Below are positions 25,694-31,634 of a stretch of DNA of 32,270 nucleotides, one piece after another. The position numbers and the translations under genes were made by a program. Source of the DNA: Deltaproteobacteria bacterium (lineage in GTDB: Bacteria > Desulfobacterota > Desulfomonilia > Desulfomonilales > Desulfomonilaceae); assembly GCA_016875095.1 (NCBI GenBank), contig VGSG01000049.1, positions 1-32,270 of the forward strand. The letters are read 5' to 3'. Each line of letters opens with the position of its first letter. Position 1 is the first letter of the stretch. The notes below the pieces were generated by a model, which worked only from the letters and a program-made list of their open reading frames with translations, was not told the origin of the DNA and made no database searches.

Positions 25694-26403
25694 GGATCGG
25701 CCCAGGCGACGCCCTGGACCGGACTCGCCGAGCGGAGGCCGCGATAGCCCGCGCTCAAGTCGTGGTCGGGTACAGTCGTTATCTGAAGCTGATACAGGAC
25801 CTGACTGAAGGCAAAGAGCTGCTTTCAACCGGAATGACCAAAGAGGTTGAGCGCTGCTTGTTGGCTCTGCGTCGTGCGGAGAGCGGCGAGACCGTGGCGC
25901 TGGTCTCTTCGGGAGATTCAGGAATCTACGGCATGGCGGGCCTTGCATTGGAACTGGCGCACAAGGAGCGTGTCACGGTTCCTATAGAGGTAATCCCCGG
26001 CGTGACATCCGCAACCGCGCTCGCTGCTCGGCTGGGCGCTCCGCTCATGCTCGATTTCGCAGCAATCAGCCTCAGTGATCTGCTCATTCCCTGGGAAGTG
26101 ATCAGGCGGCGGCTGGAGGCTGTGGCCGCGGCGGATCTTGTGGTGGCCTTGTACAATCCGAGGAGCCGCAAGCGGCGGAAACAACTGGACGAGGCCGCTG
26201 AGATCTTTAGGCGCCGGCGGCCGGGCGCCACTCCAGTGGGGATTGGGACCTCGGTCGGCGCTGATGAGGAAGAGATCATTGTGTCGGACCTGGACCACTT
26301 TCTGGAGTTTGACATCACCATGAGATCGGTTCTCATCATTGCAAACTCGGTCACCAAGTTGCTTAACGGATGGCTGGTGACCCCGCGCGGGTACCGGGTA
26401 TGA
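25624..26403 (+). CDS. cobJ: Precorrin-3B / cobalt-factor III C17-methyltransferase, probable ATT start
   Basis: The protein (CbiH in anaerobic nomenclature) has 259 residues when read from ATT at 25624, the usual CobJ length. It catalyses C17 methylation with ring contraction. Core blocks are LVGIGPGD at 22-29, VVVGYSRYLKLI, VSSGDSGIYGMA near 97, VIPGVTSATALAARLGAPLM, and LYNPRSRKR, a CobJ hallmark. The frame is closed upstream by TAG at 25612-25614, and contains no ATG, GTG or TTG before LVGIGPGD. GTG at 25762 would delete the first 46 residues, including the SAM-binding loop. The perfect AGGAGG five bases before the ATT makes it the best start; CTG at 25681 is a weaker alternative. It overlaps cbiG by 70 bases and cbiJ by four (ATGA). 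Confidence 0.88.
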   Translation: MSRTEAKPSRGHNCGRAGRLFLVGIGPGDALDRTRRAEAAIARAQVVVGYSRYLKLIQDLTEGKELLSTGMTKEVERCLLALRRAESGETVALVSSGDSGIYGMAGLALELAHKERVTVPIEVIPGVTSATALAARLGAPLMLDFAAISLSDLLIPWEVIRRRLEAVAAADLVVALYNPRSRKRRKQLDEAAEIFRRRRPGATPVGIGTSVGADEEEIIVSDLDHFLEFDITMRSVLIIANSVTKLLNGWLVTPRGYRV

Positions 26404-27167
26404 TTCTCCTGCTCGGAGGCACGAGCGAGACCGCGGACCTGGCTGAAGCGCTTGCAGCCGCGGACCTTTCTGTGATCGTTTCCACAGTGACGGACCTGCC
26501 GCTGAATACAGGCGCGTATCCACGTATCGAACGGGTGACCGGAGCGCTGGACGCGCCGAGCATGGAGAGGATGGTCCGCAATCGAGGGATCAAAGCTATT
26601 GTGGACGCGACCCACCCCTATGCGGCCGGGGCGCACGAGACCGCGCGGCGGGTTGCGGACAAGGTGGGATTGCCGTGCTTCACGTGGACCCGTGAGCCCA
26701 CCCGGTACGACGCCGGCGCCGTAGACATCGCTGATGACCATGAGCACGCGGCGGAGCTGGCAGCTTCGCACGGCCGTACGGTCCTGCTGACCACCGGCTC
26801 GAAGAATCTCAGCATCTATGCGGAATCATGCCGTAACAGCGGTGTTCCCTTAATAGCGCGTGTGCTGCCGGAACCCGAATCCATAGAAGCCTGTCTGGCC
26901 GCCGGAATCGAGCCTGATAAAATCGTCACAGGACGGGGGCCGTTTTCCCTTGAAGAGAACGTTTCGCTGATCAGGAAATTCGACATCGGTGTTCTGGTGA
27001 CTAAAGACAGCGGCCCCGCGGGTGGCGCGCCGGAAAAGCTCGAAGCCGCGGAGCGGTGTGGCTGTCGGGTGATTATGATCCGAAGACCGGTGGGAGAGCA
27101 TGACCACGGGTTTTCCGAAGTGGAGTCCCTGGTGCGCGCGGTGTGCGCGGCAGTGAGAACAGGATGA
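26400..27167 (+). CDS. cbiJ: (Cobalt-)precorrin-6A reductase
   Basis: This 255-residue protein is the CobK/CbiJ reductase, which reduces the macrocycle before methylation at C5 and C15. It starts MILLLGGTSETADLAEAL, has the conserved IVDATHPYAA near 72-81, FTWTREPTRY near 103, TTGSKNL near 135, and VTKDSGPAGGAPEKLEAA near 200-217. The ATG overlaps the cobJ stop. An upstream GTG in the same frame lies inside cobJ and is not needed. It is the last gene of the tight operon; the 400 bases that follow are non-coding. Confidence 0.94.
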   Translation: MILLLGGTSETADLAEALAAADLSVIVSTVTDLPLNTGAYPRIERVTGALDAPSMERMVRNRGIKAIVDATHPYAAGAHETARRVADKVGLPCFTWTREPTRYDAGAVDIADDHEHAAELAASHGRTVLLTTGSKNLSIYAESCRNSGVPLIARVLPEPESIEACLAAGIEPDKIVTGRGPFSLEENVSLIRKFDIGVLVTKDSGPAGGAPEKLEAAERCGCRVIMIRRPVGEHDHGFSEVESLVRAVCAAVRTG

Positions 27168-27570: not shown

Positions 27571-28113
27571 ATGCAATCGCACCACCAACCTATCCTACTG
27601 CTGCACTCCCTGGGCGAAGGACATCCCGGTATTACTACCGCTATCGCAGCTTACTGCTCCGAGGCTGCCAGTCTCTGTTTGGAGGATCAAGGGCATCTGC
27701 CGGGAGTTAAGATGGAGGTCGCCGGAGCTCATACGCTTTCGTGCGTTCTTCAATGGGAGACCGGTGACGCGAGAAAGGTGGTGTCCTGGGATAAAGACGA
27801 TGCCACTGAATGTGGGGCGTCAGTCATTGCGATCCTTGTCGTCGATCATCTGACGGGCTTGAAGGTGATCGAGAGAGCGCAGAAGGGTGATCGAGTCGAT
27901 TACTGGCTGGGCAAGGCTGACAATGACGACGAGCCTCCGTTCCTGAGAGAGGGACGACTTGAAGTATCTGGCATCCGCCGAGGCGATGAATCCATCGTCA
28001 GGAATAGAGTTAGATCAAAAGTGCAACGACTGAAGCTGTCGTCCAGTAATATCAAGGCCTTTGTGGTCGTAGTGGAATTCGGGACACCTATGTCCCAGGT
28101 ACAGGAATCGTGA
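27571..28113 (+). CDS. Uncharacterised conserved protein, first gene of a two-gene module
   Basis: This 180-residue protein is predicted cytosolic: no signal peptide or membrane segment. The N-terminus has GHPGITTAIAAYCSEAASLC near 18-37, the middle has DDATECGASVIAILVVDHLTG near 75-95 and ERAQKGDRVDYWLG near 101-114, and the C-terminus LEVSGIRRGDESIVRNRVRS near 129-148. I recognise this pattern from hypothetical proteins that occur in front of homologues of the next gene, but I know of no described function. The repeated Cys/His spacing is not a clear metal site. The start codon is an ATG with a weak AGGT upstream. The stop overlaps the next start as GTGA, so the pair is translationally coupled. 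Confidence 0.75.
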   Translation: MQSHHQPILLLHSLGEGHPGITTAIAAYCSEAASLCLEDQGHLPGVKMEVAGAHTLSCVLQWETGDARKVVSWDKDDATECGASVIAILVVDHLTGLKVIERAQKGDRVDYWLGKADNDDEPPFLREGRLEVSGIRRGDESIVRNRVRSKVQRLKLSSSNIKAFVVVVEFGTPMSQVQES

Positions 28114-29225
28114 ACGCGGTCAAACAAATTCACCGGCAGGCAATGGAGTTCGCGGATCAGGCGTTCATAGCCAAACTGCGAGGAGAACTCGGCAAAGCTA
28201 CTGAACTAACGCGAAAAGCCTTTGAATTTGAGAGCAAGGCTGCGGACTTAGTAATCAACAATCTGGATCTAGAGCCTACCCGGTCCGTTCTCTATCGCAG
28301 CGCTGCTTCCTTTGCGATGAATTGTGGCGAGTTGCGAGAAGCGGAGCGTTTAGTCGCACAGGGGTTAGCGGGGAATCCGCCTGAGAACATCGCTGAGGAG
28401 TTGCGTGATCTGCTTGAGCAAGTTCATTTCTCGCGTCATATGAGCCTCCGTGGACTTACATTGGAACCTGAGGAGTTTCAGTTTTCGATAACAGGAGATG
28501 CGGTTGGACCGGGCATCGCTAACAGTGACCTGTTCTTGCAACGCTATCAGGATGTGGAGAAATTGGTATACCGAACTGGGGACCGGGTTCGAAAAGAGCC
28601 TTTCCGTGAACGTGGGCCGCGCAAGAAAGCTTCCGCAGGCGGATTAGATTTGTACGTTACAGTCCCTCGTGCTGCAAGCTTTGCTGTTTCTATTAGAATT
28701 GCAGTAGGGACAAACGCTTGGCTTGAGGGCATGAGTCCTGGTGCGGAGCTAATAGATGAACTTATGACCTGCTTGGAATTGTTCAGTACTTCAGATGAAG
28801 CGCACCTCAAAGAACGCATTCCTGAACCTGCCTATTTCCGTAACTTTGTCGGGTTAGCTCGTAAGATCGCCCCTGATGGCCAACGGGTCAAGGCCGTTGG
28901 ATTCACGGCCCTTCGAGAGCAAAAGGAACGGCGGGTGTTACTTACCAAGCCGGTGTCCGAGGCCATGACGGTGCCTGAGATTGCTTTGGAAGAGGAGCCT
29001 GAAGAAAGAGTTGTAATTAGGGGCACGTTGAAGTACGCAGACGCCCTTAAAGAAGAAGGAGAAATAAGATTGCTGGACGAAAAGGGTGGCATCCACAAAG
29101 TCGTGGTTCCAGAAGGGATGCTTGCGGATATAGTGAGACCGAGCTTTGAGAAGGTCGTGACCCTTACCGGTATGAAGAGGGGAGCCATAATTCGGCTTCT
29201 CGACATAGAAGAAGCCCAGGACTGA
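28110..29225 (+). CDS. Uncharacterised conserved protein, second gene of a two-gene module
   Basis: This 371-residue protein starts at a GTG overlapping the previous stop. Residues 1-110 look like a TPR-type helical region: AMEFADQAFIAKLRGELGKA, then EPTRSVLYRSAASFAMNCGELREAERLV, and GLAGNPPENIAEELRDLLEQV. Residues 110-300 are mixed, with FQFSITGDAVGPGIANSDLF near 128-147 and FRNFVGLARKIAPDGQRVKAVGF near 245-268. The C-terminal 70 residues form a small beta-rich domain (VVIRGTLKYADALKEEGEI, HKVVVPEGMLADIVRPSF). The pattern suggests a helical scaffold carrying a sensor or binding domain, but the function is unknown. G+C content is lower than in the cobalamin genes. Confidence 0.75.
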   Translation: MNAVKQIHRQAMEFADQAFIAKLRGELGKATELTRKAFEFESKAADLVINNLDLEPTRSVLYRSAASFAMNCGELREAERLVAQGLAGNPPENIAEELRDLLEQVHFSRHMSLRGLTLEPEEFQFSITGDAVGPGIANSDLFLQRYQDVEKLVYRTGDRVRKEPFRERGPRKKASAGGLDLYVTVPRAASFAVSIRIAVGTNAWLEGMSPGAELIDELMTCLELFSTSDEAHLKERIPEPAYFRNFVGLARKIAPDGQRVKAVGFTALREQKERRVLLTKPVSEAMTVPEIALEEEPEERVVIRGTLKYADALKEEGEIRLLDEKGGIHKVVVPEGMLADIVRPSFEKVVTLTGMKRGAIIRLLDIEEAQD

Positions 29226-29505: not shown

Positions 29506-30693
29506 TTACAGGAACTGTAATGGGTATCCCATCTCAAAACAGTTTGGTTTGTACAAAGAAATCCCGAGCTCTTTAATCAGTTGAATCACCTTATAGTAAT
29601 ACTCTATTCTCCATGCTTCCTGGTTCCTTAAACTTAATTGGTCAGCGAAAAAAGCGGCAAATATACTCAAGCCTATGGTATCGACTAGTCCAAGACGATG
29701 CAATCGTAGAAGCCCCTTTTCAAATGAGGTGAAGGAATCAATCCCAGCTATGTAGTTTAATTTTAGCTCATCAAAGCCCACGTTCCGTGCACGCTCTAGC
29801 AATGTTTCGATCGCGGTTAATGGTAGGGCCTTGTATTTGCTCATAATCTGCGTCCTGTTTGAAAACACCTCTAATGTGTACGAATAGCGTTTCTCATCTA
29901 CTATTTCATACAAATTTCTTAAACCTTCTTCCGAACGGACATCTTGAGCACAAGCACCAAATTTCATTTTTGATCCGACCCCCGCTCTTGCCAACAGTTC
30001 TTTTAGCCTTCCAAGGTATCGCAAAAAAGGCGCTTCACTGCCGAAAAGTTCTGTAATCACCGAAACATGCGACACACCTTTAAAAACATCTGTCCCATAA
30101 TCGCGGATAATTCTATCCACCACCTTTTCAGGTGACAACAAACGCTCAGTTTGCTGTGGTCTAAATCTGTGAGAAAATCCGCGATGGCAAAACAAGCATC
30201 TTCCAGGGCATGCTCCAGTATTTTTCGGATTAATTCGCAATTCGTAATAAGGGTATTTGGTTCCGAGAAATGGGAAACTATATCCTTTGAGATATCTAGG
30301 GGTTTCAGCTTCCGGTAATGGTACTTCAACAATAGAATTCCCGCCAAACACGGGTCTCCCATGATAGCAAATTTTATTTCCAACATATTCGTATGGGGAA
30401 GCCCCTTTTGGCATTATTGGTATCTTCTTTGGCACGGAGAAGTACCCATTAGCTTCATTTGATAGTAGTCTTAAATGAATCTCCTTGAAGTTGATGACGT
30501 CATCCTTCCTGAAATCAATGTCCTTTCTGTCCACACATACGCCTCTTAGTTGCAATTGGAGGCTGTGAAACGCGTCTTGGCTAATACCGAGGTTTTCACA
30601 GATTCCCAATTCTCTCTCCGTATTTGAAAAAGAAGTTGTGTGACGCATGTCTTCGCCAATCCCAGCCTGATGCTTTTGGAGTGGGTGATTCAC
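29506..30693 (-). CDS. Radical SAM family protein of unknown function
   Basis: This protein has 395 residues when started at the GTG at 30693, or 380 from an in-frame ATG at 30648; neither start has a strong ribosome binding site. The 4Fe-4S motif is CPGRCLFC, with Cys162, Cys166 and Cys169 (CX3CX2C). The N-terminal ~150 residues precede the barrel and contain IPIMPKGASPYEYVG and PRYLKGYSFPFLGTKYPYYELRI, which I do not recognise. The barrel continues through VSHVSVITELFGSE and FGACAQDVRSEEGL, with a long C-terminal segment. No SPASM-type Cys cluster is seen. The gene is AT-rich (about 37-45 % G+C in sampled lines) compared with about 60 % in the cobalamin operon, a sign of recent acquisition. 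It follows the membrane-anchored protein on the same strand after 75 bases. Confidence 0.75.
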   Translation of the reverse strand: MNHPLQKHQAGIGEDMRHTTSFSNTERELGICENLGISQDAFHSLQLQLRGVCVDRKDIDFRKDDVINFKEIHLRLLSNEANGYFSVPKKIPIMPKGASPYEYVGNKICYHGRPVFGGNSIVEVPLPEAETPRYLKGYSFPFLGTKYPYYELRINPKNTGACPGRCLFCHRGFSHRFRPQQTERLLSPEKVVDRIIRDYGTDVFKGVSHVSVITELFGSEAPFLRYLGRLKELLARAGVGSKMKFGACAQDVRSEEGLRNLYEIVDEKRYSYTLEVFSNRTQIMSKYKALPLTAIETLLERARNVGFDELKLNYIAGIDSFTSFEKGLLRLHRLGLVDTIGLSIFAAFFADQLSLRNQEAWRIEYYYKVIQLIKELGISLYKPNCFEMGYPLQFL

Positions 30694-30768: not shown

Positions 30769-31431
30769 CTAAAGCTCAGCCTCGTCTGAGGCTTCCCAGA
30801 CTAGGTCAAAGAATCTATGGAGGTTATCATACATCTCGTCTTGCTTCCTAAATATATATACTTTGCAATCTCTAGCGTAGGCGTCATCTCTGTAGGGCGT
30901 AAATATGAGGCAACGATCAGTAACGATAATCCTACCTATGTCGGGGACATTGTATCTCTTGAGATTTATCGAAGCATGTTCTGCGTGTGATAACAGCAGA
31001 TCGCAATTTGTGTCAATCTGGCTTCGGAGTGAACCATCGCAATAGGAAGGATCAAAAGTGCATAATTCCTTTTCTCTTTGGGCGAGCCAATCATACCGCC
31101 CTCCTGGATTTCTTGTTTGAGGTAGCAGAATTTGGGCTGTGAATGTCTTGTCAAAAGAGTTCTTTCCGAAAATGGACTTAAAAGTGTCTCGCTGAAGTTC
31201 ATTTCCTCTACCAGTGAATACTTTTATCCATCTGGCCTTGTCGACTTCCTTTCGCACGTGTTCCTCAGACTCCTTTTTGTTCCTATAGACAGCATCAATG
31301 TCCACGTCCAAAATTCTCCCAAAGATGCCCATAAAAACCCCCCGAACTTTTCGGGACACAAATATCGTCACTAGGAGAAGGATCAATCCTCCGAGGACAG
31401 AAGCCAGGACACTGCTTACGAAGTCTCCCAT
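30769..31431 (-). CDS. Membrane-anchored protein with a possible PLD-like sensor domain
   Basis: The start is set at the ATG at 31431 (220 residues), preceded by GGGGAG at about 12 bases, because the first 35 residues of the longer frame look like untranslated DNA and the membrane segment follows at once: FVSSVLASVLGGLILLLVTIF. After a charged, possibly coiled segment (DAVYRNKKESEEHVRKEVDKA), the soluble part has VFTGRGNELQRDTFKSIF, LLPQTRNPGGRYDWLAQREKEL, and RYNVPDIGRIIVTDRCLIFTPY. This order (strand, YDWL helix, LSHAEHA, Arg-x-Tyr, RxIVTDR) recalls phospholipase D-like folds that lost the HxK motifs. That is my inference. The soluble domain should face the cytoplasm. It is AT-rich like its neighbour, and the two may form one module. 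Confidence 0.65.
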   Translation of the reverse strand: MGDFVSSVLASVLGGLILLLVTIFVSRKVRGVFMGIFGRILDVDIDAVYRNKKESEEHVRKEVDKARWIKVFTGRGNELQRDTFKSIFGKNSFDKTFTAQILLPQTRNPGGRYDWLAQREKELCTFDPSYCDGSLRSQIDTNCDLLLSHAEHASINLKRYNVPDIGRIIVTDRCLIFTPYRDDAYARDCKVYIFRKQDEMYDNLHRFFDLVWEASDEAEL

Positions 31432-31634
31432 AAGAAGTGCTCCCCTATTCGGGGGTCTTGGATCAGGTTCGTTGTCGATAGTGAGGTCGTTTTGCCGCGA
31501 AAACGGTGGATGTGGTTCACACAACGCCATCCGCACACAGTGAAGAGCAGCGTTACATGGTAGAGAAGTCCTGTTTCCCCAATGGCCTTAATACAGCGCA
31601 CATTGCCCAAGGTCAAGAAGAATCTTGCGCGTGG

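Follow-up and report, generated by a model that had tools for sequence, protein, structure and literature searches.

Among described proteins, the families of the PD-(D/E)XK superfamily with a lysine at motif IV (DUF506, DUF790 and DUF1626; PMC1913061) come closest to the product of ORF1, the first of two overlapping open reading frames (ORF1 and ORF2) analysed here. Both genes lie in a stretch of 32,270 nucleotides from a Deltaproteobacteria bacterium of the family Desulfomonilaceae (contig VGSG01000049.1, positions 1 to 32,270; referred to as the window). In such families motif III reads (D/E)x(S, T and others), and the positively charged residue is shifted to the helix of motif IV (PMC1913061). 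In contrast to the superfamily, ORF1 has no significant Pfam match, and its structural similarity is weak, with Z scores up to 6.3. The DREN nuclease of SPARDA resembles the proposed ORF1 in being a nuclease effector that is held by a partner until activation (PMC12205087). DREN, however, uses D41, Q60 and K62, with the lysine on strand 3 where ORF1 has a serine, and no Argonaute or APAZ gene was recognised adjoining the pair. Type II toxin-antitoxin modules share with the pair the short, overlapping and co-directional genes, the combination of a candidate nuclease with a partner, the common orphan partners and an effector that hardly ever occurs alone. Here, in contrast, the partner is a tetratricopeptide repeat (TPR) protein, often with an OB-fold, rather than a DNA-binding antitoxin. 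Modules of the ParE/RelE, PIN and MazF/PemK types take the position of ORF1 beside the TPR gene in three loci but, unlike ORF1, have their own upstream candidate antitoxins.

We consider it about an even chance that the pair is a mobile two-gene conflict module, in which a nuclease-type effector, ORF1, is kept by its TPR partner, ORF2. This role is favoured because of the nuclease fold predicted for ORF1, the dependence of ORF1 on ORF2, the decay of ORF1 at several loci and the TPR halves borne by phages. The pair is undescribed in the libraries searched, and the predicted fold and conserved residues of ORF1 as well as the predicted architecture of ORF2 are new.

Pairing and distribution of the two genes

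ORF1 (27571–28113, forward strand) encodes 180 amino acids with a predicted PD-(D/E)XK (restriction-endonuclease-like) fold and is a candidate nuclease effector. ORF2 (28110–29225, forward strand) encodes 371 amino acids comprising a TPR adaptor, an alpha/beta middle part and an OB-fold. The GTG start codon of ORF2 (28110–28112) overlaps the TGA stop codon of ORF1 (28111–28113), giving a GTGA overlap (28110–28113, forward strand) within the junction sequence GAATCGTGAACGCG. An AGGA-type ribosome-binding sequence is found a few bases 5' of the GTG codon, and the overlap is a candidate site of translational coupling. This arrangement of adjacent, co-directional and overlapping genes matches that of a type II toxin-antitoxin module. 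An initial annotation of the window had described both reading frames and their overlap, and the exact overlap of four bases is indeed kept in 42 of 58 distinct ORF1 homologues. The remaining homologues are within the choice of start codon, except for two at a contig end and one start artefact.

No significant match to ORF1 or ORF2 was obtained in Pfam, NCBIfam, PADLOC or PHROGs, and no relative was found among the sequences of the PDB. PADLOC-DB 2.0.0 gave no match to either protein at E values up to 1, INPHARED phages yielded no relative of either, and 48 aligned ORF1 homologues were likewise unrecognised by the profile libraries. The best sub-threshold matches (bioD with an E value of 0.18, a copper storage protein and a C-type lectin) were dismissed as chance. 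The pair is also undescribed in the open-access literature that was searched, with subscription papers and recent defence catalogues outside the reach of that search. The initial annotation had regarded the genes as a recurring coupled pair with no assigned family and had proposed profile searches as a check; these matched no characterised family, and homologues were found across phyla.

Scanning genome contigs with ORF2 alone gave no matches, and a scan with an alignment of its N-terminus yielded 229 related stretches, of which 80 were kept. The relatives kept are mostly from Cyanobacteria and also from Nitrospirae, KSB1, Planctomycetes, Chloroflexi, Proteobacteria and Thermodesulfobacteriota. 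The pair itself recurs in Cyanobacteria, Nitrospirae, Chloroflexi, Planctomycetes, Bacteroidota, Proteobacteria and Thermodesulfobacteriota, and in homologues across phyla both frames are open at 30–50% identity. Relatives of ORF2 are also carried on plasmids of Leptolyngbya, Anabaena and Hymenobacter and on predicted viral contigs. Among 394 other genomes of the same phylum a clear ORF2 is present in four and ORF1 in four, and both occur, adjacent to each other, in three (Fisher's exact test, p = 1.6e-6). The corresponding p-value for 193 cyanobacterial genomes is 1.8e-5. Presence is sporadic (10 of the 193 sampled cyanobacterial and 4 of the 394 same-phylum genomes), often in several copies with decayed neighbours. 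The genome of the window has a single copy. In a set of 60 relatives (17 of the same family), ORF2 was not found in any of the other 59 genomes.

A second, divergent group of pairs (L148, 1489–2396; L146, 1118–2001; L208, 3929–5604) carries the sequences GADYYIA and RLEVSG, and a TPR-like gene overlaps downstream. Hence, the family is wider than the present searches reach. At locus L207 (4962–7686), whose ORF1 match is listed as L206, a distant ORF1 relative with the sequences ADYWLG and LLEVSGQ keeps the D, E and K residues. The next gene, immediately downstream, encodes a ResIII/DEAD helicase with a helical N-terminus. This locus would be a nuclease-helicase version of the pair.

Predicted fold and conserved residues of ORF1

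The AlphaFold2 model of ORF1, based on 49 sequences, has a predicted local distance difference test (pLDDT) value of 89.4 and a predicted template modelling (pTM) score of 0.87. It consists of a helix (residues 75–95), three strands (98–105, 108–114 and 128–135), a second helix (140–157) and two further strands (162–169 and 174–179). With good confidence, this predicted order of elements corresponds to the PD-(D/E)XK core. Invariant among 49 homologues are T79, A83, D110, W112, F124, L130, E131, S133, G134, I135, R146, K150, E169, F170 and P173. Both sequence blocks quoted in the initial annotation are present in ORF1, and the SGIRR of one of them belongs to the invariant core RLEVSGI.

Mapped on the model, E80, D110, E131-x-S133 and K150 occupy the positions of motifs I to IV of PD-(D/E)XK enzymes; their codons all lie on the forward strand. 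E80 (27808–27810), on the first core helix and putatively motif I, is conserved in 96% of the 49 homologues and is replaced by arginine in two copies of a divergent ORF1 subgroup. D110 (27898–27900), putative motif II, is located on the second core strand in the sequence GxDYWLG and shows no variation among the 49 homologues or the aligned divergent relatives. The putative motif III, E131-V-S133 (27961–27969), lies on the third core strand within RLEVSGI; E131, S133, G134 and I135 are invariant in the 49 homologues, and E131 is likewise invariant in the aligned divergent relatives. In the 49 homologues, D110 and E131 thus supply the acidic residues that PD-(D/E)XK enzymes have on strand 2 (motif II) and on strand 3 (motif III). 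K150 (28018–28020) on the second core helix, the putative lysine of motif IV, does not vary across the 49 homologues and the aligned divergent relatives. This residue is a candidate replacement for the lysine of motif III and fits the motif IV variant described in PMC1913061.

The best structural neighbour of ORF1 residues 71–180 is the DREN nuclease of SPARDA, with a Z score of 6.3 over 104 residues at 3.9 Å. It is followed by an alkaline exonuclease (Z score of 6.1), further exonucleases, Cas4-like proteins and viral cap-snatching endonucleases. The same list also contains tRNA splicing endonucleases and some unrelated entries, the neighbours being mostly PD-(D/E)XK enzymes. Since the lysine of motif III was not found and K150 fits the motif IV variant, ORF1 is termed PD-(D/E)XK-like rather than canonical. 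This assignment is supported by the predicted fold and two canonical motifs.

Domain architecture of ORF2

For ORF2 the AlphaFold2 model has a pLDDT value of 85.6 and a pTM score of 0.59, so that the arrangement of the domains is uncertain. Residues 1–113 (28110–28448, forward strand) form TPR-type helical repeats with predicted helices at 2–23, 27–47, 57–71, 75–87 and 92–113. The most conserved stretch of ORF2, the signature EPTRSVLYRSAA, is located in the third helix. TPR proteins fill the list of structural neighbours of this part with Z scores of 11–14, a range that helical repeats can reach by chance, and several ORF2 homologues give sub-threshold matches to TPR families of Pfam. Residues 120–280 (28467–28949, forward strand) are predicted to form an alpha/beta domain. 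Residues 299–368 (29004–29213, forward strand) form a small OB-fold-like beta barrel with the strand order E-E-E-helix-E-E in the model, i.e. five strands, the third and fourth being separated by a helix. Foldseek matched this barrel to the OB-folds of IF1, eIF5A, SilF/CusF and SSB-type proteins with target template modelling scores of 0.56–0.72.

Structure prediction of each protein, also suggested in the initial annotation, thus yielded a PD-(D/E)XK-like core for ORF1 and TPR, alpha/beta and OB-fold parts for ORF2. The TPR-like N-terminus and the small beta-rich C-terminus anticipated for ORF2 both appear in the model. The middle part, described there as variable, is not hypervariable: the alpha/beta domain is conserved among long ORF2s and missing from most cyanobacterial ones. 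ORF2 proteins occur in a long form of about 366–400 amino acids, to which that of the window belongs, and in a short form of 115–136 amino acids, usual in Cyanobacteria, that consists of the TPR part only. This part is the sole ORF2 portion in most cyanobacterial and phage homologues. No DNA-binding domain of the antitoxin type was detected in ORF2 by profile or fold searches, the fold of the middle domain being unassigned. On a Hymenobacter plasmid (L011, 7001–7906) the TPR half forms a fusion with an annotated sugar transferase, with ORF1 upstream.

In phage contigs of IMG/VR the TPR half stands alone, without ORF1, and its best segment shares 32–56% identity with the query. At L116 (3286–3603) it belongs to a cluster of head genes, flanked by a head morphogenesis gene and the next gene of the structural region, with the portal gene nearby. 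Further stand-alone halves are found beside terminase genes (L107, 7618–7944; L109, 5895–6560), beside a RecE-type exonuclease gene (L106, 1247–1606) and beside a DnaB-type helicase gene (L105, 8001–8351). In the case of DarTG, a phage is reported to encode an antitoxin mimic (PMC11481870). By analogy with such mimics, a counter-defence role of the phage TPR halves would be a reasonable reading.

Dependence of ORF1 on ORF2 and proposed function of the pair

In the ORF1 search, the full-length ORF1s recovered are followed directly by a TPR-type gene wherever their contig extends further. The partners at L146 and L187 are divergent and were recognised by eye, and the sole exception, L139, is itself a truncated ORF1. 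The reverse does not apply to ORF2. In the ORF2 search, ORF1 is intact in 42 of the 74 contigs with room for it and in 5 of the 15 loci of the cyanobacterial sample; L046 was scored in this count as lacking ORF1 only because its reading frame was extended upstream, and the locus table shows a pair there. Several ORF2 loci without an intact ORF1 keep just the 3' end of ORF1. With the centre genome left out, the cyanobacterial sample contains ten loci with ORF2 only and none with ORF1 only (one-sided p of about 0.001; weighting by gene length raises it to 0.005). The median ratio of nonsynonymous to synonymous substitution rates is 0.10 for orphan and 0.12 for paired ORF2s, these pairwise values including the time preceding the loss of ORF1. 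Judging by these ratios, constraint on ORF2 is as strong in the orphans as in the pairs, and the orphans are under purifying selection. The pattern seen in type II toxin-antitoxin systems, in which the effector gene is not kept without its partner and orphan partners occur, is thus found here as well. Such a dependence is the trace expected from a harmful effector and its keeper, but it would equally be compatible with an independent role of ORF2.

At three orphan ORF2 loci a toxin gene takes the place of ORF1. MazF/PemK (L045, 7386–8416), ParE (L014, 9503–10570) and PIN (L023, 9326–10375) genes directly precede the orphan TPR genes. An antitoxin function of the TPR gene towards these toxins was rejected, given their own candidate antitoxins and the ORF1 remnants at L045 and several other orphan ORF2s. 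Because each toxin has its own upstream candidate antitoxin, these modules were probably inserted beside ORF1 or replaced it, rather than using ORF2. In two Nostoc genomes (loci L056 and L065, 10823–12911) a DUF488 gene, shown for L065, adjoins an orphan ORF2 at L056 or the pair at L065; DUF488 is the commonest Pfam family among near neighbours, with 4 of 140 proteins.

In the conflict module favoured here, ORF1 would cut nucleic acid by means of E80, D110 and E131, together with K150 relocated to the second core helix. It would be made in step with ORF2 through the GTG start that overlaps its stop codon. The TPR repeats of ORF2 would bind ORF1 and prevent its activity. Sensing or targeting, probably through nucleic acid, may be added by the alpha/beta domain and the OB-fold where ORF2 is long. 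A trigger such as phage infection, or loss of ORF2, would then release ORF1, resulting in damage to nucleic acid. Nuclease activity, inhibition by ORF2, a trigger and a benefit, as well as toxicity and phage defence by the pair, are inferred, whereas the gene pairing, the predicted folds, the conserved residues and the dependence of ORF1 on ORF2 were observed here. Fold and pairing are well supported. A more specific form of the proposal is put forward only tentatively. It envisages an undescribed class of anti-phage or addiction module with a TPR-held PD-(D/E)XK-like nuclease and a relocated lysine, from which phages would have taken only the TPR half as a counter-defence antidote that silences the nuclease of the host by way of the EPTRSVLYRSAA surface.

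Several observations weigh against a nuclease-based conflict module. The canonical (D/E)xK lysine of motif III is absent, with S133 in all 49 homologues, and ORF1 could be inactive without it. Structural matches to ORF1 are weak; no Foldseek E value is below 0.001, and Z scores below 8 possibly reflect just a common arrangement. A DNA-binding domain such as antitoxins usually have was not recognised in ORF2. Conserved orphan ORF2s occur in three genomes without a detected ORF1 (G504, G478 and G563), which suggests a role of ORF2 of its own. Furthermore, proteins within 2.5 kb of the pairs matched 128 PADLOC families compared with 91 for proteins 6.5–10 kb away, a weak signal. No recurring partner system was found among the PADLOC matches near the pairs, which include AbiEi, Csx1, caspase-like and HEAT proteins, and an enrichment of known defence genes was not demonstrated. 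Neighbourhood statistics of this kind had been recommended in the initial annotation. Of its suggestion that the pair is a defence or stress module, the accessory location stands. A defence role was not shown, since no PADLOC model matches and the neighbourhood signal is weak.

The first alternative is an anti-phage system in which ORF2 senses a phage product or an unusual nucleic acid and actively switches on ORF1, as restriction or abortive infection systems do, instead of only holding it back. The OB-fold and extra domain of long ORF2s, the absence of ORF1 where ORF2 is absent, the pairing of a distant ORF1 relative with a ResIII helicase, the pairs in predicted viral contigs and the sporadic distribution would all agree with it. 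Most cyanobacterial ORF2s, however, consist of the TPR part only and have no sensor domain, and the signal from PADLOC neighbours is weak, so that active sensing is a possible but doubtful explanation. A catalytically dead ORF1 that binds nucleic acid or ORF2 in a structural or regulatory role would account for the serine found throughout in the position of the motif III lysine. We regard this as unlikely, since the acidic residues and K150 of ORF1 are invariant and the same rearrangement occurs in families proposed to be active (PMC1913061). It is quite improbable that ORF2, as a TPR adaptor or chaperone serving the cell in its own right, is the main gene and carries ORF1 as a dispensable accessory. 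In favour of this reading, orphan ORF2s remain intact under purifying selection even where no ORF1 was detected, and ORF2 occurs with different C-terminal parts and, in Hymenobacter, as a fusion with a sugar transferase. A sporadic, often multicopy distribution with decayed neighbours is nevertheless unlike a cellular core function, and the conserved catalytic-type residues of ORF1 would be left to explain. Chance or misread reading frames, for which nothing but the want of a named family speaks, are refuted by homologues in several phyla with conserved overlap, residues and folds.

The surroundings of the pair agree with the accessory region of reduced G+C content that the initial annotation had noted. 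G+C content falls from 0.63 in the cobalamin gene before the pair to 0.54 in ORF1, 0.51 in ORF2 and 0.42 in the next gene, the upstream genes sampled having 0.56–0.63, and ORF2 is missing from the related genomes mentioned above. A run of cobalamin genes ends 5' of the pair with cbiJ (26370–27167). On the 3' side a stretch of low G+C content contains a radical-SAM gene and an opposite-strand protein with a hydrophobic N-terminus. The radical-SAM protein (29506–30693, reverse strand, 395 amino acids, G+C content of 0.42) adjoins the pair, matches PF04055 with an E value of 5e-7 and shows a weak likeness to TYW1. Adjoining its gene, 30769–31536 (reverse strand) encodes a 255-residue protein with a hydrophobic, apparently membrane-spanning N-terminus, which had no family match in the profile library searches; the two may constitute another accessory module. 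The accessory stretch is bordered by short, imperfect repeats that do not clearly mark the boundary of an element. At L211 (573–13324), from the same phylum, the pair is located near genes of the cobalamin or iron uptake type and a thiC-like gene. The proximity of both pairs to cobalamin-type genes is either a coincidence or a shared insertion spot.

Two widespread sets of hypothetical proteins are thus joined as one module with a dependence pattern of the effector and keeper type. A fold and catalytic residues are proposed for ORF1 and an architecture for ORF2, and as the pair consists of two short genes, it is directly testable in E. coli. If the proposed module is correct, it would represent a new nuclease family and a TPR-based mode of control in bacterial conflict systems, and it could explain why the TPR half occurs by itself in phages.
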